From contig NZ_JAGIAS010000011.1 in assembly GCF_017744695.1 (NCBI RefSeq), positions 124,001 to 188,000 on the forward strand: a stretch of DNA of 64,000 nt. The letters are read 5' to 3'. Position 1 is the first letter of the stretch. Each line of letters begins with the position of its first letter. Shown in pieces: positions 45,831 to 55,483 of the stretch. The DNA is from Dyadobacter sp. Its GTDB lineage: Bacteria > Bacteroidota > Bacteroidia > Cytophagales > Spirosomataceae. The position numbers and the translations under genes are program-made. The notes under the pieces were generated by a model that did not search any database, was not told where the DNA came from, and saw only the letters and a list, made by a program, of their open reading frames with translations.

Positions 45831-45847
45831 TTTAAGCATATCTTAAG
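45831..45847 (+). promoter_or_regulatory. Two CTTAAG-type repeats before the OmpR regulator gene
   Basis: TTTAAG (45831-45836) and CTTAAG (45842-45847) are spaced exactly 11 bp apart, the same unit and pitch as the four repeats at 47977-48015. They lie 74 bp before the regulator start. This suggests autoregulation by direct-repeat binding of an OmpR-type protein. Confidence 0.55.
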
Positions 45848-45920
45848 AGTCGATCGGATGAATATTCCATTGCTTCTTATTTACTTCGTATACCCTGATA
45901 CCCGTATCACGACCCAGAGT

Positions 45921-46589
45921 ATGCGAATCCTGATCATCGAAGACGAACCCGGCATTTTGAACTTCCTCCGGCAGGGGCTTGAAGAAGAATCCTATTCGGT
46001 AGATACGGCCACCAATGGCCTGAACGGGCTCGAAATGGCGCTCGCAGAAGCATACGATGTGGTACTGCTCGATTGGATGCTGCCCGGAAAAAGCGGTGTT
46101 GAAGTCTGCAGGGAAATCAGGAAGGCTGGTATCAAAACGCCTGTTATCTTTCTGACTGCCCGCGATACGGTCCAGGATACCGTATTCGGCTTGCAGGCCG
46201 GCGCCAATGATTACATCAAAAAGCCATTCAGTTTTGAAGAACTTCTGGAACGGATCAAGGTGCAATTGCGGCCGCAATCAGGCGAGCAGCTTGAATTTCG
46301 GTTGGGGCCCATTTTGGTCGATACCCAATCCCACCAGGTTTTCAGGGATTCACAGGAAATCAAGCTGACGCAGAAAGAATTTGGCCTGCTGGAATTTCTG
46401 CTGCGTAATAAAGGAAAGGTTTGCCGACGGACACGCATCATCGAGAGCGTCTGGGACATTCATTTCGAGTACAATACCGGCGTCATTGACGTTTACATCA
46501 ATTCACTGCGCAAAAAGCTGGGGCTCACCAAAGAGGAAGATTACATCCAGACCATCCGGGGCGTGGGTTACATAGCAAAGGAAATATGA
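45921..46589 (+). CDS. OmpR family response regulator
   Basis: 222 residues from the ATG at 45921 (MRILIIEDEPG); the track start at 45858 adds 21 residues unlike the family. Receiver domain with Asp51 in VVLLDWMLPGKSG and winged helix about 125-222 (LTQKEFGLLEFLLRNKGKVCRRTRIIESVWD, VDVYINSLRKKLG, IQTIRGVGYI). Overlaps the kinase gene by 4 bp. The CusR/CopR-like arrangement with an RND metal pump downstream suggests metal sensing; the direct repeats flanking this pair are its likely binding sites. Confidence 0.95.
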   Translation: MRILIIEDEPGILNFLRQGLEEESYSVDTATNGLNGLEMALAEAYDVVLLDWMLPGKSGVEVCREIRKAGIKTPVIFLTARDTVQDTVFGLQAGANDYIKKPFSFEELLERIKVQLRPQSGEQLEFRLGPILVDTQSHQVFRDSQEIKLTQKEFGLLEFLLRNKGKVCRRTRIIESVWDIHFEYNTGVIDVYINSLRKKLGLTKEEDYIQTIRGVGYIAKEI

Positions 46590-47992
46590 ACAATGCGGGA
46601 ATGACCTCCTCCTATCGAAACCGGATCGCACTAAATTTTACCCTGGGGACGGGGCTATTGGTGGCATTCATTTTTCTGCTGATCTACTACATCGTCAGCG
46701 CGACGGTTTTCAATCGTCTGGAAAAAGACCTCGGCTACGAGTTGGAAAAACATTTCTATGAAGTGGGCGTCCTGCACGGGCAACCCTACTTTGCCGACAA
46801 AGCCGAGTGGCTGGAACGCGAGCACAGCGAACTGGAAATCAATCCGGTATTTGTGGTCCTGACGAGCCTTTCGGGGAATGTCATCGATAAATCACCCAAC
46901 CTTAAAAATGACTCTCTGAAACTCCATTTCTCGACGGTGGATCGCGCCGTTTTCAAAACCACTTTGCAGGGACGGGCGATCGAACAGATACAGGTGACCA
47001 TTAAGGAAAACAACCGGCCGGCAGGCTACATCATTGTCGCAATGCCCATCGACGAATCCGAAAGGGTACTTTTCAATCTTAAGGTCGTGCTTTTGGTCGC
47101 TTTCCCGGCGGCGCTGGCGATCCTGTTCGTTTTTACCAGGTACACAGCCGGCAGAAGCATACAACCCGTGCTGACGGTGATAGAAACGGCCAGCAAGATT
47201 TCCAACGATAACATGACGAGCCGCATTCCAGTGCCGGCTGTTCGGGACGAGCTGCATTTGCTGGTCACCACCCTCAACGAACTGATGACCCGCGTCGAAC
47301 ACGCCATCGAACGTGAAAAACGGTTTACCGCCGACGCCTCGCATGAGCTGCGTACGCCACTGGCTGTGATTAAAGGCACGCTGGAAGTGTTGATACGAAA
47401 ACCGCGGTCGGCGGATGAATACATCAGAAAAATCTCCTTTTGCATCGCGGAAATGGACCGCATCAACCACCTGGTCGATCAACTCCTGCTATTAACCCGG
47501 TTCGAAAGTCAGCAAAAGGCGATGGACATGGGGGCCACAGACCTTTCCGAACTCACCGGTAACATTCTGGTGCGCCACCAGCAGCAAATCGTCGAAAAGA
47601 AACTTTCTGTGGATCTGGAAACCGACGGATCGCATATCGTATATAGTGATCCGTACATGACGGACATCATGCTCGACAATATTATTTCCAATGCTGTGAA
47701 GTATTCATCCGGCCCGGCCGGCCTGATGATCAGGATCGTAACTTCCGGCGAAAAGACGCATTACACGGTAACTGACCAGGGAATAGGCATTGACCCTAAC
47801 GACATCAATCGCATACGCGACGCCTTCTACCGGTCGGCCCCCCTGTCGCACCCCGAGGTGAAGGGTAGCGGGCTGGGCCTGTCCATCGTCAACCGCATGT
47901 GCGAGATGCTTGGGGTAGATTTCAGCATCCATAGCCAGCTCGGCAAAGGCACCGAAGTTACGCTCTCATTTCCAATCTTAAGCCAATCTTAA
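46586..47992 (+). CDS. HAMP-domain sensor histidine kinase
   Basis: 468 residues. Membrane helix 1 about 15-38 (LNFTLGTGLLVAFIFLLIYYIV), periplasmic sensor about 40-155, helix 2 about 160-180, HAMP about 185-238, HisKA with His253 in FTADASHELRTPLAVIKGTL, HATPase with DIMLDNIISNAVKYSS, DQGIGIDPND and GSGLGLSIVNRMC. CusS-like architecture. Its last codons already carry the first CTTAAG repeats of the next promoter. Ligand unknown; metal or envelope stress is inferred from the following operon. Confidence 0.94.
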   Translation: MNNAGMTSSYRNRIALNFTLGTGLLVAFIFLLIYYIVSATVFNRLEKDLGYELEKHFYEVGVLHGQPYFADKAEWLEREHSELEINPVFVVLTSLSGNVIDKSPNLKNDSLKLHFSTVDRAVFKTTLQGRAIEQIQVTIKENNRPAGYIIVAMPIDESERVLFNLKVVLLVAFPAALAILFVFTRYTAGRSIQPVLTVIETASKISNDNMTSRIPVPAVRDELHLLVTTLNELMTRVEHAIEREKRFTADASHELRTPLAVIKGTLEVLIRKPRSADEYIRKISFCIAEMDRINHLVDQLLLLTRFESQQKAMDMGATDLSELTGNILVRHQQQIVEKKLSVDLETDGSHIVYSDPYMTDIMLDNIISNAVKYSSGPAGLMIRIVTSGEKTHYTVTDQGIGIDPNDINRIRDAFYRSAPLSHPEVKGSGLGLSIVNRMCEMLGVDFSIHSQLGKGTEVTLSFPILSQS

Positions 47993-48034
47993 GAATCCCT
48001 TGAGAATCCTTTAAGAAAGCCGGGAATACCTTTG
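47977..48034 (+). promoter_or_regulatory. Four 11-bp direct repeats and promoter of the Rieske-RND operon
   Basis: CTTAAG at 47977, CTTAAG at 47988, CTTGAG at 47999 and TTTAAG at 48010 are each exactly 11 bp apart, one helical turn, on the same face of DNA. A -7 box TACCTTTG (48027-48034) follows, with no good -33 box, as expected for an activator-dependent promoter. The first two repeats overlap the 3' end of the kinase gene. OmpR-family regulators bind such tandem hexamers. Confidence 0.65.
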
Positions 48035-48076
48035 ATTCAAACAGAAAACAATCAGAGTTAATCCCGCTAATCATCT

Positions 48077-48517
48077 ATGAACTCCACCGGACACGCTGAG
48101 AACCTGACCCGCCATGCCTTTCTGCGCAAGCTGGGCTTTGGCGGAGCTGCACTTTCCGCCATCTATTTTGGCAGCCATCTGCAATCCTGTACCAACGACC
48201 GCGTCAATCCCGCGCCCACCAATATGACCCTCGACCTGAACGACCCCGCTTACGCGGCCCTGAAATCCAATGGCGGATATGTCGTGAAGGATGGCGTCGT
48301 CATCGCACGAAGCAACACCGGCGCATACATAGCGGCCACCCGGACGTGCAGCCACGAAGGCCGGAATGAGGTAATTTACCAAACCGACCATTTCTATTGC
48401 ACAGCACACGGGGCCAAATACGACAATACCGGCAAAGGCCTCAACAGTGAAGGCAAGAAAGGGATAGCCGTTTACACAACCTCCCTTACCGACCAGATCC
48501 TTACCATAACTGCCTAA
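48077..48517 (+). CDS. Rieske [2Fe-2S] protein, exported
   Basis: 146 residues. The N-terminus (RHAFLRKLGFGGAALSAIYFGS) is a signal or anchor segment ending in a possible lipobox at Cys38 (SHLQSC). The Rieske cluster ligands are Cys91 and His93 (TRTCSHEGR) and Cys108 and His111 (FYCTAHGAKYD), with the second loop CTAHG replacing the usual CPCHG, so the disulfide pair of respiratory Rieske proteins is missing. Probable periplasmic electron carrier. First gene of the operon driven from 48027; 3 bp before the next gene. Confidence 0.9.
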   Translation: MNSTGHAENLTRHAFLRKLGFGGAALSAIYFGSHLQSCTNDRVNPAPTNMTLDLNDPAYAALKSNGGYVVKDGVVIARSNTGAYIAATRTCSHEGRNEVIYQTDHFYCTAHGAKYDNTGKGLNSEGKKGIAVYTTSLTDQILTITA

Positions 48518-48520
48518 GCC

Positions 48521-49441
48521 ATGCTCAAAACGACATTCGTTCTATTTTTCAGCCTCATAACTTTCATGGCTGTGGCCCAGACCGATCTGATGAAGGAATT
48601 GGAACAAGCCGATGACTCGACCATACATTATGCGGCGGCGACTTTCAAAGGCACCCGCATTATCAACGGGCATTCCATCGAAACGGTTGGCAAGAATAAC
48701 ATGGACTTCATTATTTCGCACCGTTTCGGGGCGATCAATTCCGGGGCAGGCAACTTTTTCGGGCTGGACGAATCCCAGATCCGCCTCGCGCTGGAATACG
48801 GCCTCACCGACCGGCTGATGGTAGGGCTGGGCCGTAGCAGCTATCAGAAAACGATTGACGTTTTCGTGAAGTACCGCTTGCTTCGCCAGTCGGGCGGCTT
48901 GCGTAACATACCCGTGTCCGTTACACTTTTCGCCAGCGACGCGCACAATGCAAGCACATCTACGCCGGACCTTCCATTTTACACCATTACCCAGCGGCAG
49001 ACCTACACATTCCAGGCGCTGATAGCCCGGAAATTCAATGAAAACCTCTCCTTGCAGCTCACGCCAACCATCATGCATCGCAACCTGGCAGAAAAGCCAT
49101 TGGACGCGAACAATCTGTACGCCCTGGGCGTCGGCGGCCGCTACAAGCTCACCAAACGCACCTCGTTCAATGCCGAATACTGGTACACGCCCAAGCGCAT
49201 CGGCAACACGACACAGCGCGACCCGCAATACACCAATACGCTGTCTCTGGGTTTTGACATCGAGACGGGCGGACACGTGTTCCAGCTGCATTTGACAAAC
49301 TCCCGTGGTATGATCGAGAAACAGTTCCTCGGCCAAACGACCGGCAAATGGAGCAACGGGGATATCTTCTATGGTTTCAACGTCGCCAGGACTTTCAGTT
49401 TTGACAAAAACAAAAAACGCAGCAACGGCAATGGATACTAA
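48521..49441 (+). CDS. DUF5777 family outer membrane beta-barrel protein
   Basis: 306 residues, signal peptide about 1-19 (FVLFFSLITFMAVAQ), then FKGTRIINGHSIETVGKNNMDFIISHRFGAINSGAGNFFGLDESQIRL, a recalled DUF5777 signature, and barrel-like strands to the end. Members commonly sit next to YceI and Rieske genes in Bacteroidota, but their function is not established. It overlaps the YceI gene by 11 bp. Confidence 0.85.
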   Translation: MLKTTFVLFFSLITFMAVAQTDLMKELEQADDSTIHYAAATFKGTRIINGHSIETVGKNNMDFIISHRFGAINSGAGNFFGLDESQIRLALEYGLTDRLMVGLGRSSYQKTIDVFVKYRLLRQSGGLRNIPVSVTLFASDAHNASTSTPDLPFYTITQRQTYTFQALIARKFNENLSLQLTPTIMHRNLAEKPLDANNLYALGVGGRYKLTKRTSFNAEYWYTPKRIGNTTQRDPQYTNTLSLGFDIETGGHVFQLHLTNSRGMIEKQFLGQTTGKWSNGDIFYGFNVARTFSFDKNKKRSNGNGY

Positions 49442-49994
49442 GCTTTTCAGATGGGCATTTCTGCTAATGGCCAGCCAGTTCCTGGCAATTTGCGCCAGCG
49501 GGCAGATTTACATGACGAAAACCGGACAAACGAGCTTTTTTTCGGAAACTCCCCTGGAAAATATCTCGGCTGTAAACCAGCAGGTAGCGGTTCTGCTGAA
49601 TAGCACCAACGGGGAAATCGCGGTGCGAATGCAACATCGGGCATTTACTTTTCCCAACAAGCTCATGCAGGAGCATTACAACGAAAACTACATGGAAACG
49701 GAGAAATATCCGGCAGCCAGCTTTACGGGAAAGTTGGCTGAGCATATCGATTACAGCAAGGACGGCACTTACGCCGTGAGCGCGGAAGGTTCCCTGGACA
49801 TCCACGGTGTCAAACAAAAACGGGTGTTGAAAGGTCAGCTGACCATAGACCACGGACAATGCACGCTGAATTGCGAATTCGACGTCAGGCTGGCGGATCA
49901 CAATATCCAGGTCCCTACCCTAGTAATCACCAAAATTGCAGAGTCCATTTCAGTTAAAAACAAGTTCGTTCTCATATTGAAGAAAACCTCGTAG
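49431..49994 (+). CDS. YceI family periplasmic lipid-binding protein
   Basis: 187 residues from the ATG at 49431 (MDTKLFRWAFLLMASQFLAI); the track start at 49371 lies inside the previous gene. Signal peptide about 1-25, then a lipocalin-like barrel: TGQTSFFSETPLENISAVNQ, KYPAASFTGKLAEHIDYSKDGTYAVSAEGSLDIHGVKQKR, LADHNIQVP. YceI proteins bind isoprenoid-type lipids or quinones. With the Rieske and DUF5777 proteins it suggests an envelope redox module. Confidence 0.92.
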   Translation: MDTKLFRWAFLLMASQFLAICASGQIYMTKTGQTSFFSETPLENISAVNQQVAVLLNSTNGEIAVRMQHRAFTFPNKLMQEHYNENYMETEKYPAASFTGKLAEHIDYSKDGTYAVSAEGSLDIHGVKQKRVLKGQLTIDHGQCTLNCEFDVRLADHNIQVPTLVITKIAESISVKNKFVLILKKTS

Positions 49995-50001
49995 CCATTC
50001 A

Positions 50002-53000
50002 ATGCTGAACAAAATCATCGCCTTTTCGGTCAGCAACAAGCTTATCGTGGGACTGGTCGTCCTTGCGCTGATAGGCTACGGCAGCTACGAGCTTACCCGG
50101 CTGCCGATCGACGCCGTGCCCGACATCACCAACAACCAGGTGCAGGTAATTACCATCGCGCCATCCTTCGGTGCGACCGATATCGAAAGACTCGTCACCT
50201 TTCCCATTGAGCAGGCCAACAATAACATTTCGGGACTGAAAGAAATACGCAGTTTCTCCCGCTTTGGCCTTTCCCTGGTCACGATCGTTTTTGAGGACGA
50301 CGTGGATGTGTACTGGGCACGACAGCAGGTTTCCGAACGCCTTGGCAAAGTACAGGGGCAAATCCCGCAAGGCATTGGTACGCCGGAGCTTGGGCCCATC
50401 AGCACGGGACTTGGCGAGATTTACCAGTATGTGGTCCGCGCCCGGGAGGGTTACCGGCACCGTTACGATGAAACCGAGCTCCGCACGATTCAGGATTGGA
50501 TCGTCAGAAGACAGCTCCTCGGCGTGAAGGGCGTTGCGGAAGTGAGCAGTTTCGGCGGCAAACTCAAACAGTATTCGATCGAAGTGGACCCTGCGAAACT
50601 GCTCTCCATGGGGCTGAATATCAATGATGTATTCACCGCATTACAGGAAAACAATGCCAATACGGGAGGGGCCTACATCGAAAAGGGGCCTTCGGTACTT
50701 TATATCCGCAGCGAGGGGCTTGTGGAAAATCTGGACGACATTGGCGGTATCGCCGTCAAAAACCTGCCCGACGGACAACCGGTTTTCATCCGCGACGTCG
50801 CCGAAGTGAATACAGGCTTCGCAACCCGATACGGCGCCATGTGTTATAACGATCAGGGAGAAGTCTCGGGCGCTGTGGTCATGATGCTCAAAGGAGCCAA
50901 CAGCAGTGAGGTGATCGCCGCTGTGAAGCAACGCGTAGCGCAGATTCAGAAGACGCTTCCCGAAGGTGTGGTGATAGAACCATTCCTGGACCGTACCAAG
51001 ATGGTCAACAACGCCATCGGGACTGTTGAAAAAAACTTGCTGGAAGGCGCATTGATCGTCGTTTTCGTACTCGTGCTCTTTCTGGGGAATCTCAGGGCAG
51101 GTTTATTGGTGGCATCGGTCATTCCGTTGGCTATGCTTTTTGCGGTCATCATGATGAACACGTTCGGCGTCAGCGGCAATCTGATGAGCCTTGGGGCACT
51201 GGATTTTGGCCTGATTGTCGACGGTGCGGTGATCATTGTCGAAGCGGTAATGCATCAGATCGCCCGGAGCACCCAATTTTCCGGCACCGGCCGGCTCACA
51301 CAGAAACAAATGGACGAGCAGGTCAACGAGTCGGCCGACCGCATGATGAACAGCGCTGTATTCGGACAGATGATTATTTTAATCGTATACCTGCCCATAT
51401 TCACCTTACAGGGCATTGAAGGAAAAATGTTCAAGCCTATGGCACAAACTGTGGCATTTGCACTGCTGGGTGCCTTTCTGCTTTCACTCACATACATTCC
51501 TATGATGAGCGCGGTATTTTTGAGCAAAAAAGTGAGCCACGCGCCCAACTGGTCGGACCGCGTCATGAACAAACTTACGGCCGGTTACGTGGTCGCGCTG
51601 GAAAAGCTATTGCATCTGCCCAGGCTCGTCATACTATCCGCATTACTCCTTTTTGCTGCGGCGATATTTACGCTTACCACGCTGGGAGGTGAATTCATAC
51701 CTGCATTGGAAGAAGGGGATTTCGCGGTCGATACGCGCGTGCTCACAGGCAGCAGCCTGACCACCACGATTACCAATACCACCAAGGCGGCGCACATTCT
51801 TAAAAGCCGTTTCCCCGAGGTCGAAAAAGTGGTCACCAAAATCGGTAGCGGCGAAGTGCCTACCGACCCGATGCCTATGGAAGCGAGCGATATGATGGTG
51901 ATCCTGAAAGACAAAAGCGAATGGACTTCGGCCAGGACCTTCCCCGAGCTTTCTGAAAAAATGGGCCGCGCCTTGCAGGAAGTGCCCGGAGTGACAGCCG
52001 GATTTCAGTTTCCGGTGCAAATGCGCTTCAATGAGCTCATGACCGGTGCCAGGCAGGATGTGGTTTGCAAAATATTCGGAGAAAACCTGGATACGTTGGC
52101 ATTATATGCGGCCCGGCTGGGCAAGCTTGTCAATCAAGTCGATGGAGCCCGGAACCTGTACGTCGAAGCTGTATCCGGGCTGCCGCAGGTAGTGATCCGT
52201 TACAACCGGAACACCATTGCGCAATTCGGCCTTACCGTAGGGGCAGTGAACCGCATCATAAACACCGCGCTCGCCGGCCAAAGTACGGGGATGGTGTTTG
52301 AGGGAGAAAAACGCTTTGACCTGGTTGTCCGGCTTAGTCCGGCACAAAAAAGGAATGTAGCGCTCATTCGCGATCTGCTGGTACCCGTTTCCGGCGGGAA
52401 CCAGGTACCGCTTTCGCAACTTGCCGACATCCGCATTGTTTCCGGCCCTAATCAGATTCAGCGGGAGGATGCCAAGCGTCGTATTGTGGTGGGCTTTAAT
52501 GTGGCGGGGCGTGACGTACAGAGCATTGTAAGCGAGCTTCAAACGAAAGTCGGCAAAAGCCTGCGGCTTCCCGCAGGGTATTATGTGACCTATGGCGGGG
52601 CCTTTGAAAACCTGAATGCCGCCAAAGCGCGGTTGATGATCGCCGTTCCCGTATCGCTCGTGCTGATCTTCGTGCTGCTTTATTTTGCTTTCAACTCGGT
52701 GCGCGACGGGCTGCTGATTTACTCGGCGATTCCACTATCGGCTATCGGGGGGATTTTCTTGCTGGCCCTGCGTGGAATGCCGTTCAGTATCAGTGCCGGG
52801 ATCGGCTTTATCGCGCTGTTCGGAGTGGCGGTACTGAACGGGATCGTGCTCGTAGCCGAGTTCAACCGCATTCGAAAGGTGGGTGAAAGCGCTATTCAGA
52901 AGGCCATCCTGGAAGGTGCCAGCCACCGGCTTCGCCCGGTCCTGATGACCGCGTTTGTCGCCTCTCTGGGCTTTTTGCCGATGGCCGTCAGCAATGGTGC

Positions 53001-54345
53001 CGGAGCGGAAGTGCAACGGCCATTGGCCACCGTGGTGATCGGTGGCCTGCTGGTCGCGACGGCGTTGACATTATTCGTTTTACCGGTCCTGTACATGGTA
53101 TTCGAAAGCCGGTTCCATATCAAAGCGGGCGCGGCCGCACTCCTGATCCCTGCATTCCTCTTTGCACCGGGTCAGGCCCGGGCTCAAAAGCAGATCGGGT
53201 TGGAAACAGCCATCAACCTGGCCCTGAAAGACAACAGCCAGTTGAAAAGCGAAAAATTACGGGCGGAATACCGCCGGGCATTGATGAAAACTGCCGTTAC
53301 TCTACCGCAAACCGCTGTGAGTATAGAGGCGGGACAGATCAACAGCGCTTACACTGACACCCGGTTTGCATTATCCCAATCCGTGTTTCTTCCGGTGGTG
53401 TACAGGAGGCAACGTTCGCTTCTGGAACAAGAGTATGAGGCAGGCGCCCTGCAAGCATCTGCCACCGCGCTCGATCTGCGGCGTAATGTCACGCATCAAT
53501 TCTACAGGTTACTTTACCTCCGGCAAAAAGCCCGGCTTCTGGGCTCGCTCGACAGCCTGTTCGGGGCGGTCGCTGCACGCGCAAGCGAGCGCCTGGCGCG
53601 GGGAGAGACCAACGTACTGGAAAAGACTAGTGCCGAAATGCAGCTCGGGCAAATCAGGCAGCAGCGGGGGCAGCTGGATGCCGACCATCGGCTCGCGCTT
53701 ATCACATTCAACCTGCTGCTGAACGGATCAGAATCCTATGAACCGGACGACGGCCCGCTCATTTTTCCGGCGCCCGGGTATGCGGATACGGCCAAACTAT
53801 TATCGCACCCCTATATGCAGCTGGCCAGTCGGCAGCAAACCGTTGCCGGCGCAGCCATTGCTGTCGAAAAGGCCCGCCTTTTGCCGGAGTTGAGCCTTGC
53901 TTATAATAATATGAGCATGCGGGGGACGGGAGCCGACAATAAACTGTACAATGGCTGGCCGCGCTTTCAGGCCACGCAAGTCGGAGTAGGCATTCCCCTT
54001 TTCGCGGGTGCGCAAAAAGCGCGTATTCAGGCAGCCAGGATCGCCGCCGAGGCTGCCCGGGAACAATATCAGAGCGAGCACCGGCAGTTTGCAGCTCGTT
54101 ACAAAGCGGCACTAACAGGTTACCTTCAGTTGCTCGAACGGCTCGGCTACTATCAGAATTCCGCAGTGCCCAATGCCGAGCTGGTTGTTTTGACGGCCAC
54201 CCGTCAACTTCAGGAAGGTAATATCAATTACCTGGAATGGGGCCAGTTGATCGCACAGGCCACCTCGATCAGGAGCGAATACCTGGATACGGTCGCCAAT
54301 CTGAATCAAAATGCCATAGAACTGGACTATTTCCTTAGCCAATAA
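50002..54345 (+). CDS. Heavy-metal RND efflux pump (CusA/CzcA) fused to a TolC-type outer membrane factor
   Basis: 1447 residues; a CzcA/CusA protein is about 1040. Residues 1-1040 are the RND pump with 12 helices and the heavy-metal signature DFGLIVDGAVIIVE (Asp401, Asp407, Glu414), NNNISGLKEIRSFSRFGLS and a C-terminal FVLPVLYMVFE. Residues about 1041-1062 (AGAAALLIPAFLFAPGQARA) look like a signal peptide, followed by a TolC-like domain about 1065-1447 (GLETAINLALKDNSQLKSEK, VGVGIPLFAGAQKARIQAA). The former signal peptide could act as a 13th helix, moving the TolC part to the periplasm. The frame is continuous. Metal (Cu/Ag or Zn/Co/Cd) is not decided. Confidence 0.95.
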   Translation: MLNKIIAFSVSNKLIVGLVVLALIGYGSYELTRLPIDAVPDITNNQVQVITIAPSFGATDIERLVTFPIEQANNNISGLKEIRSFSRFGLSLVTIVFEDDVDVYWARQQVSERLGKVQGQIPQGIGTPELGPISTGLGEIYQYVVRAREGYRHRYDETELRTIQDWIVRRQLLGVKGVAEVSSFGGKLKQYSIEVDPAKLLSMGLNINDVFTALQENNANTGGAYIEKGPSVLYIRSEGLVENLDDIGGIAVKNLPDGQPVFIRDVAEVNTGFATRYGAMCYNDQGEVSGAVVMMLKGANSSEVIAAVKQRVAQIQKTLPEGVVIEPFLDRTKMVNNAIGTVEKNLLEGALIVVFVLVLFLGNLRAGLLVASVIPLAMLFAVIMMNTFGVSGNLMSLGALDFGLIVDGAVIIVEAVMHQIARSTQFSGTGRLTQKQMDEQVNESADRMMNSAVFGQMIILIVYLPIFTLQGIEGKMFKPMAQTVAFALLGAFLLSLTYIPMMSAVFLSKKVSHAPNWSDRVMNKLTAGYVVALEKLLHLPRLVILSALLLFAAAIFTLTTLGGEFIPALEEGDFAVDTRVLTGSSLTTTITNTTKAAHILKSRFPEVEKVVTKIGSGEVPTDPMPMEASDMMVILKDKSEWTSARTFPELSEKMGRALQEVPGVTAGFQFPVQMRFNELMTGARQDVVCKIFGENLDTLALYAARLGKLVNQVDGARNLYVEAVSGLPQVVIRYNRNTIAQFGLTVGAVNRIINTALAGQSTGMVFEGEKRFDLVVRLSPAQKRNVALIRDLLVPVSGGNQVPLSQLADIRIVSGPNQIQREDAKRRIVVGFNVAGRDVQSIVSELQTKVGKSLRLPAGYYVTYGGAFENLNAAKARLMIAVPVSLVLIFVLLYFAFNSVRDGLLIYSAIPLSAIGGIFLLALRGMPFSISAGIGFIALFGVAVLNGIVLVAEFNRIRKVGESAIQKAILEGASHRLRPVLMTAFVASLGFLPMAVSNGAGAEVQRPLATVVIGGLLVATALTLFVLPVLYMVFESRFHIKAGAAALLIPAFLFAPGQARAQKQIGLETAINLALKDNSQLKSEKLRAEYRRALMKTAVTLPQTAVSIEAGQINSAYTDTRFALSQSVFLPVVYRRQRSLLEQEYEAGALQASATALDLRRNVTHQFYRLLYLRQKARLLGSLDSLFGAVAARASERLARGETNVLEKTSAEMQLGQIRQQRGQLDADHRLALITFNLLLNGSESYEPDDGPLIFPAPGYADTAKLLSHPYMQLASRQQTVAGAAIAVEKARLLPELSLAYNNMSMRGTGADNKLYNGWPRFQATQVGVGIPLFAGAQKARIQAARIAAEAAREQYQSEHRQFAARYKAALTGYLQLLERLGYYQNSAVPNAELVVLTATRQLQEGNINYLEWGQLIAQATSIRSEYLDTVANLNQNAIELDYFLSQ

Positions 54346-54349
54346 GTGA

Positions 54350-55483
54350 ATGATGGATACCAAATTTTTGCTTTACACTGCACTCGGCCTCATACTTGGC
54401 TCCTGCACAGCCAAAACGGCTGATAAGGATTCCGCCGCCGAAGCGCCAACACAAGAGAACGTCGCAAAGCTGACACCCGAACAAATTCGCAATGCGGGGA
54501 TCGTCGCAGAGTTTCCTAAAGTGACGCCGGTTTCGTCCGTACTGCGTCTGAACGGGAAGATCGACGTGCCGCCGCAAAATATGGTGTCGATCAGCGCGCC
54601 GCTGGGCGGTTATCTGAAATCAACCAACCTCCTGCCTGGAATGCAAGTGCAAAAGGGGCAGGTGCTGGCGGTGCTGGAAGACCAGCAGTATATTCAGCTG
54701 CAACAGGACTACCTGGCCGGCAGCGCCCGCATCAGGTACCTTGAGACCGAATACGAGCGGCAAAAAAACCTGAATAGTTCCAAATCGGTGAGCGATAAAA
54801 CCTATCAGCAAGCCGAAGCCGATTTCCGGGCTCAGCAGGTGGCAGTCAGTGCTTTGGCAGAAAAGCTTCGGCTCGCGGGAATCAACCCGAAGCAGATCAG
54901 CGCTGACCGGATCTCACGCAGCATCAACATCCACTCACCGATCTCGGGTTATGTGTCGCGGGTCAATGTGAATATCGGCAAATACCTGGCTCCCACCGAG
55001 GTGCTTTTTGATCTGATCAATCCATCGGATATTCATCTGGCGCTGAAAGTGTTCGAAAAAGACCTTGACAAAATCCGCAAGGGCCAGCAGGTATTAGCCT
55101 TCACCAATTCCACGCCTGAGCGGAAGCTGGCCTGCGAAGTGATACTGGTCAGCAAAGACCTGTCCGCCGAGCGTACGGCCGAAGTCCATTGTCACTTTCA
55201 GAAATACGAGCCCGACCTTCTACCCGGCACATTCATGAACGCGGAGCTTGCATTGGAATCCCGCAACGCGACCGTTCTGCCGGACGATGCCATTGTCAGC
55301 TTTGAGGGAAAAGAATACATCTTCATCCCCGGAAAGGAAGGATTTGCCATGACGGCCGTGCAGACGGGCAACAGTGAAAACGGTGTTACCGAAATCCTGA
55401 GCCCCGAACTGCGTGGGACACGCTGCGTCACCAAAGGCGCCTACTCGCTGCTGATGTTTTTGAAAAACAAATCCGATGAATAA
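54350..55483 (+). CDS. RND efflux periplasmic adaptor (membrane fusion protein), lipoprotein
   Basis: 377 residues. Signal peptide with lipobox LILGSC (Cys19). HlyD/CusB-type order: beta-barrel entry TPVSSVLRLNGKIDVPPQNMVSISAPLGGYLKSTNLLPGMQVQKGQVLAVLEDQQYIQLQQDYL (lipoyl half), coiled-coil hairpin about 125-190, second lipoyl half SINIHSPISGYVSRVNVNIGKYLAP, beta barrel and membrane-proximal domain to the end. Connects the RND pump and the TolC part in the periplasm. 4 bp after the pump gene; last gene of the operon. Confidence 0.93.
   Translation: MMDTKFLLYTALGLILGSCTAKTADKDSAAEAPTQENVAKLTPEQIRNAGIVAEFPKVTPVSSVLRLNGKIDVPPQNMVSISAPLGGYLKSTNLLPGMQVQKGQVLAVLEDQQYIQLQQDYLAGSARIRYLETEYERQKNLNSSKSVSDKTYQQAEADFRAQQVAVSALAEKLRLAGINPKQISADRISRSINIHSPISGYVSRVNVNIGKYLAPTEVLFDLINPSDIHLALKVFEKDLDKIRKGQQVLAFTNSTPERKLACEVILVSKDLSAERTAEVHCHFQKYEPDLLPGTFMNAELALESRNATVLPDDAIVSFEGKEYIFIPGKEGFAMTAVQTGNSENGVTEILSPELRGTRCVTKGAYSLLMFLKNKSDE

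Follow-up and report, generated by a model that had tools for sequence, protein, structure and literature searches.

Four YTTRAG hexamers, directly repeated at a pitch of 11 bp, stand between the genes of an OmpR/HAMP two-component system and an operon for an RND efflux pump in Dyadobacter, and the same array occupies the same place beside the regulator across much of Bacteroidota and in some Calditrichota-type genomes. It recurs phylum-wide with a fixed promoter geometry and an exact length of four units, and it co-occurs with the regulator. Judging from sequence and comparative genomics, we consider it very probable that these repeats serve as operator for the neighbouring OmpR/PhoB-type regulator, which would activate both the operon running from a Rieske gene to the RND pump and its own operon. 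In the window, by which we mean the whole 64,000-nucleotide stretch analysed, the putative four-half-site operator covers positions 47977 to 48015 of the forward strand (CTTAAG at 47977-47982 and 47988-47993, CTTGAG at 47999-48004 and TTTAAG at 48010-48015). A putative two-half-site operator, TTTAAG-CATAT-CTTAAG, lies on the same strand at 45831 to 45847, with hexamers starting at 45831 and 45842. An earlier, sequence-only reading of the window had located all six hexamers, and every one of its coordinates proved exact to the base, as did its placement of the pair upstream of the regulator gene and of the array just before a -7 box, TACCTTTG. This box (48027 to 48034, forward strand) follows the array after 11 nt. 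No -33 partner for this box was apparent in the window.

The repeats are far from what base composition predicts. YTTRAG-N5-YTTRAG gave five overlapping matches in the 64 kb (the palindromic CTTAAG pair is also read on the reverse strand, which accounts for one of the five), where dinucleotide shuffles predict 0.08 and none of 100 shuffles gave more than one match. A first-order Markov model predicts 4e-8 four-unit arrays for a sequence of 64 kb and 5e-6 for one of 7.8 Mb, and an unbiased scan of the window for any hexamer occurring four times at any pitch from 7 to 30 returned eight raw matches, two of which were the array in adjacent registers. Throughout the organism's own genome (7.8 Mb), YTTAAG-N5-YTTAAG occurred at the array and the regulator-side pair only; six more YTTRAG pairs, all containing TTTGAG, were at background. 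A 39-bp weight matrix derived from 138 sites (136 from related loci and the two window sites) scored the array at 45.3, the best value in the window, the regulator-side pair at 21.3 and the next-best position elsewhere in the window at 3.3, these scores being slightly circular because the matrix includes both window sites. At the regulator-side pair of the window, units 3 and 4 could not be recognised.

The gene behind this pair encodes an OmpR/PhoB-family response regulator (45921 to 46589, forward strand) with the receiver (Pfam PF00072) and C-terminal winged-helix (PF00486) domains of that family; its start is most likely the ATG at 45921 (MRILIIEDEP) rather than an upstream in-frame ATG at 45858. 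A HAMP sensor histidine kinase gene follows (46586 to 47992, forward strand; HAMP, HisKA and HATPase domains, PF00672, PF00512 and PF02518). Its TAA stop codon (47990-47992) falls in hexamer 2, and the array therefore begins within the coding end of the kinase gene, as had been read from the sequence. The target operon, on the forward strand throughout, comprises genes for a Rieske [2Fe-2S] protein (48077 to 48517; PF00355, with C-x-H and C-x-x-H ligand motifs in the translation), a DUF5777 outer-membrane beta-barrel protein (48521 to 49441; PF19089, E 4.8e-96), a YceI-like protein (49431 to 49994; PF04264), a CusA/CzcA-family RND pump fused to an outer-membrane efflux (OEP) domain (50002 to 54345; PF00873, PF02321 and TIGR00914, the last at 1164.5 bits, above the cut-off of 701) and a periplasmic adaptor of the CusB/CzcB type (54350 to 55483; PF16576, and TIGR01730 above cut-off). 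The DFGLIVDGAVIIVEA segment of the pump presumably marks it as the divalent-cation type rather than the Cu/Ag type of this family.

To compare loci broadly, we used 80 with regulator orthologues, drawn from diverse Bacteroidota (Dyadobacter, Algoriphagus, Cyclobacterium, Hymenobacter, many Flavobacteriaceae, Chitinophagales and Saprospiraceae) and also from Melioribacteraceae and Calditrichota metagenome-assembled genomes. On the coding strand of these loci we counted 136 YTTAAG pairs at pitch 11, 17 and 7 at the harmonic pitches of 22 and 33, and 0-2 at each non-harmonic pitch. When all hexamers were scanned at pitches 8-29, CTTAAG at pitch 11 came out on top with 97 occurrences, and the best hexamer outside pitch 11 and its harmonic of 22 reached 10. 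Conservation of the repeats upstream of orthologous operons had been named beforehand as a test of the proposed regulation, and an array was indeed present at the regulator and/or the RND pump in 79 of the 80 loci: exact pairs in 71 and, in eight of the remaining nine, arrays close to the consensus that lay either before the regulator gene or at the end of the kinase gene. The sole locus of the 80 with no recognisable site was L085. The array thereby shows what characterises the direct-repeat operators of OmpR/PhoB proteins, namely tandem half-sites about one helical turn apart, near target promoters and conserved together with the regulator. The Rieske-DUF5777-YceI insert between kinase and pump was found in Dyadobacter only, and at the other orthologue loci the pump comes after the kinase, often directly. 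The target as first described, a Rieske-DUF5777-YceI-RND operon, therefore needs to be divided: the CzcA-type RND pump is the core target, and the three genes before it are a Dyadobacter-specific insert within the sampled loci.

Alignment of the 138 sites gave the consensus YTTAAG-N5-CTTAAG-N5-yTnAG-N5-yTnAG-N9-11-TAnnTTTG. Units 3 and 4 averaged 3.6-4.4 of 6 matches against a background of 2.0-2.1, and positions 0 and 5, which flank the array at a distance of one pitch, were at background, with no fifth unit seen on either side in these sites. TAnnTTTG began 31-33 nt after hexamer 2 at 49 of the 138 sites (0.27 in shuffles, maximum 2) and at no other position of the 68 nt scanned. This leaves 9-11 nt between the last unit and the -7 box and puts units 3 and 4 over the -33 region. 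As the -7 box of Flavobacterium psychrophilum is located at -12 to -5 (PMC9723704), the transcript of the window operon is expected to start near 48039, with a predicted leader of about 38 nt. Regulator-side sites in the orthologues lay between -51 and -124 relative to the ATG of the regulator gene, most often at -61. For 35 loci with a site at -60 to -62 (for example L047, L050, L057, L065 and L078), the distance from -7 box to ATG was exactly 4 nt in 34, from which a leaderless regulator mRNA is predicted; such mRNAs make up just 5.5% in F. psychrophilum (PMC9723704). Dyadobacter differs in this respect, since the regulator site of the window lies at -90 and its degenerate -7 box, TTACTTCG (45881 to 45888, forward strand), placed at the standard distance, predicts a start at about 45893 and a leader of about 28 nt. 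The -7 boxes of the regulator promoters at other Dyadobacter loci are likewise degenerate.

Sites and regulator also occurred together genome by genome, in counts that are not independent events because the genomes are related: of 48 Dyadobacter genomes, 17 have the regulator and every one of these carries the site pair, its members about 2.1-2.4 kb apart, and the pair was present in none of the 30 genomes without the regulator whose matches were listed. For one of the 17 (G042), the sites were noticed first; its regulator orthologue had been missed by the protein search and was then found along with the kinase and Rieske genes. This orthologue (L151, 6048-6789) is split into two frames, reflecting either gene decay or an assembly error. 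In 16 whole genomes reached through the loci, 32 of 40 strict sites were at the regulator locus, and the control pattern gave two matches in all. Across 297 genomes of the phylum, 15 of 25 strict-motif matches had a regulator orthologue no more than 3.5 kb away, counting one in G071 slightly farther along the same pump operon. The 10 unlinked matches are no more numerous than those of the reversed-pattern control (about 22), and the total is close to this control as well; the regulator-linked matches alone stand out. The sequence-only reading had looked to a genome-wide scan for further members of the regulon, which did not materialise: strong sites were confined to the array and the regulator-side promoter in the 7.8-Mb genome, so that no wider regulon is visible. 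A large genome-wide regulon was accordingly rejected, given these two promoters and the rate of unlinked matches in the 297 genomes, at or below that of the control. Two Dyadobacter genomes carry additional copies or sites. In one, a truncated second regulator copy (L155, 751-1200; 98 aa, 78% identical) keeps its own site (at 1309); in the other, two extra sites lie near the locus (L157, 2184 and 15452), one with TACATTTG at the standard distance.

The hexamer and its pitch have well-studied counterparts. CiaR of the streptococcal CiaRH system binds TTTAAG/NTTAAG-N5-TTTAAG about 10 nt from the -10 box (PMC3091779), and the array described here shares with this operator the hexamer, the 11-bp pitch, the direct orientation and the gap of about 10 nt that separates the last hexamer from the -10/-7 box. 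The CiaR recognition helix VVEVYVSKVRKKL resembles VIDVYINSLRKKL of our regulator more than that of PmrA does, in a comparison confined to the published CiaR helix. Conversely, CiaR operators have two half-sites and a TATAAT box, whereas here there are four half-sites, the Bacteroidota TAnnTTTG box and an RND metal pump as target; the likeness is a functional resemblance, not shared descent. PmrA (BasR) of enterobacteria, likewise an OmpR/PhoB regulator, binds CTTAAG-N5-nTTAAT, that is, head-to-tail hexamers 5 bp apart (PMC3973317; PMC4660055). Its residues T187, V192 and R210 align with T186, V191 and R213 of the regulator, but the base-contacting N188 and N196 are replaced by G187 and S195. 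Because two of the three base-contacting positions thus differ, the protein contacts of PmrA are not transferable, and specificity through PmrA-like base contacts was rejected. Target genes and phylum differ too, the regulator is 34% identical to E. coli BasR, and it scored 158 bits with the PmrA model NF007928, below the cut-off of 330. The nearest family models of both proteins are those of the heavy-metal systems (CusR/CzcR/CopR/AgrR), a CusA/CzcA pump adjoins them, and the regulator is 43% identical to E. coli CusR, but both proteins stay below the curated cut-offs (regulator, 232 bits with TIGR01387, cztR/silR/copR, cut-off 279; kinase, 195 bits with TIGR01386, cut-off 292). Moreover, AgrR of Cupriavidus, a metal regulator of the CzcR/CopR group, binds the inverted repeat ATKACA-N4-TGTMAT (PMC7380067), in contrast to the direct repeats at pitch 11 found here. 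The operator, as deduced from sequence, is a well-defined addition to the CiaR/PmrA-like direct-repeat class. To call the repeats a 'code', as was done initially, overstates their novelty, because CiaR and PmrA already have the hexamer and the pitch; what is fresh is the length of four units, the -7 box of Bacteroidota type, the stop codon held in common with the kinase gene and the prediction of a leaderless mRNA for the regulator. No prior description of the motif in Bacteroidota was found in the open-access literature searched, which does not prove that there is none.

Could the repeats be something other than binding sites? The probability that they are a chance or compositional artefact of AT-rich repeats is vanishingly small, for even though two-hexamer matches occur at the background rate in many genomes, the excess in the window (five against 0.08) and the count at pitch 11 (136 against 0-2 at nearly every other pitch) do not fit it, and shuffles, pitch controls and reversed-pattern controls rule it out. 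It is also extremely unlikely that the repeats near the kinase stop are kept for encoding the kinase C-terminus and not as DNA sites. The stop codon does lie inside the 17-bp pair at 34 of 65 kinase-end sites, where it is nearly always the TAA of a CTTAAG or TTTAAG hexamer, as in the window, and ends at +4, +15 or +26 from the site start (hexamer 1, 2 or 3). However, 28 of the 65 sites begin only after the stop codon, the -7 box follows at a fixed distance, and the same array stands upstream of the regulator and before displaced pump genes; coding constraint was rejected because these non-coding copies exist. Where genes are inserted between kinase and pump, the site precedes the pump start codon by 81-87 nt in most cases examined, and the array therefore follows the target promoter, not the kinase end.

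Two other accounts accept a response-regulator operator and differ in who binds it or to what effect. Another regulator encoded in the genome might bind the array or share it, the neighbour being only one user, which we regard as unlikely. In three Dyadobacter genomes, CTTAAGTCCATCTTAAG is conserved about 17 nt beyond the kinase gene of a paralogous two-component system whose regulator is 43% identical (L152, 2097; L153, 3944; L154, 3533), and the sites may therefore not be exclusive to this regulator. Similarly, four Flavobacterium-like genomes (Flavobacteriia-type genus g53), with no regulator orthologue nearby, carry CTTAAG-N5-CTTAAG at 125-126 nt upstream of an orthologous TonB-receptor-like gene (L170, 3543; L173, 3520; L175, 3520; L178, 3469). 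Against such sharing, strong sites track the presence of the regulator genome by genome, and the 10 unlinked matches in the phylum compare with about 22 in the reversed-pattern control. There is a similarly slight chance that the site represses, for example if the unphosphorylated regulator blocked the promoter. A protein bound to the array, which lies right next to the -7 box, could obstruct polymerase, but units 3 and 4 occupy the position of a -33 element at a distance of 9-11 nt from this box, which is the geometry of CiaR-activated and class II promoters, and no -33 partner is apparent. What counts against the main reading is the regulator promoter of the window, with just two recognisable half-sites and its degenerate -7 box, together with the siteless locus L085.

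The proposal that the regulator acts on both promoters is hence supported by the comparative evidence, from which we infer binding by the neighbouring regulator, dependence on phosphorylation, activation and a metal signal. In the proposed mechanism, the HAMP kinase would sense envelope metal stress and phosphorylate the regulator, which would occupy the four hexamers at 47977-48015 as two dimers in head-to-tail arrangement. At 9-11 nt from the TAnnTTTG box, the promoter-proximal pair would then stand in for the -33 element that is missing and recruit RNA polymerase, which would transcribe the Rieske-DUF5777-YceI-CzcA/OEP-adaptor genes; class II activation would be the simplest account at the pump operon. 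A single dimer on the pair at 45831-45847 may confer positive autoregulation on the regulator-kinase operon. The chances seem evenly balanced that a grammar of this kind holds at the scale of the phylum, with a fixed four-half-site operator that would replace the -33 element, supply the kinase stop codon and drive a leaderless regulator mRNA in many lineages.

To our knowledge, few operators appear to be defined for response regulators of Bacteroidota. The operator presented here is sharply defined by comparative genomics with regard to sequence, number of units, phase to the -7 box and target, and it would provide a metal-pump regulator with direct repeats of the CiaR/PmrA type in place of the inverted repeats of AgrR. 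It also suggests how activators may work at promoters that have a TAnnTTTG box and lack a -33 element, and it offers a candidate design for inducible promoters in Bacteroidota.
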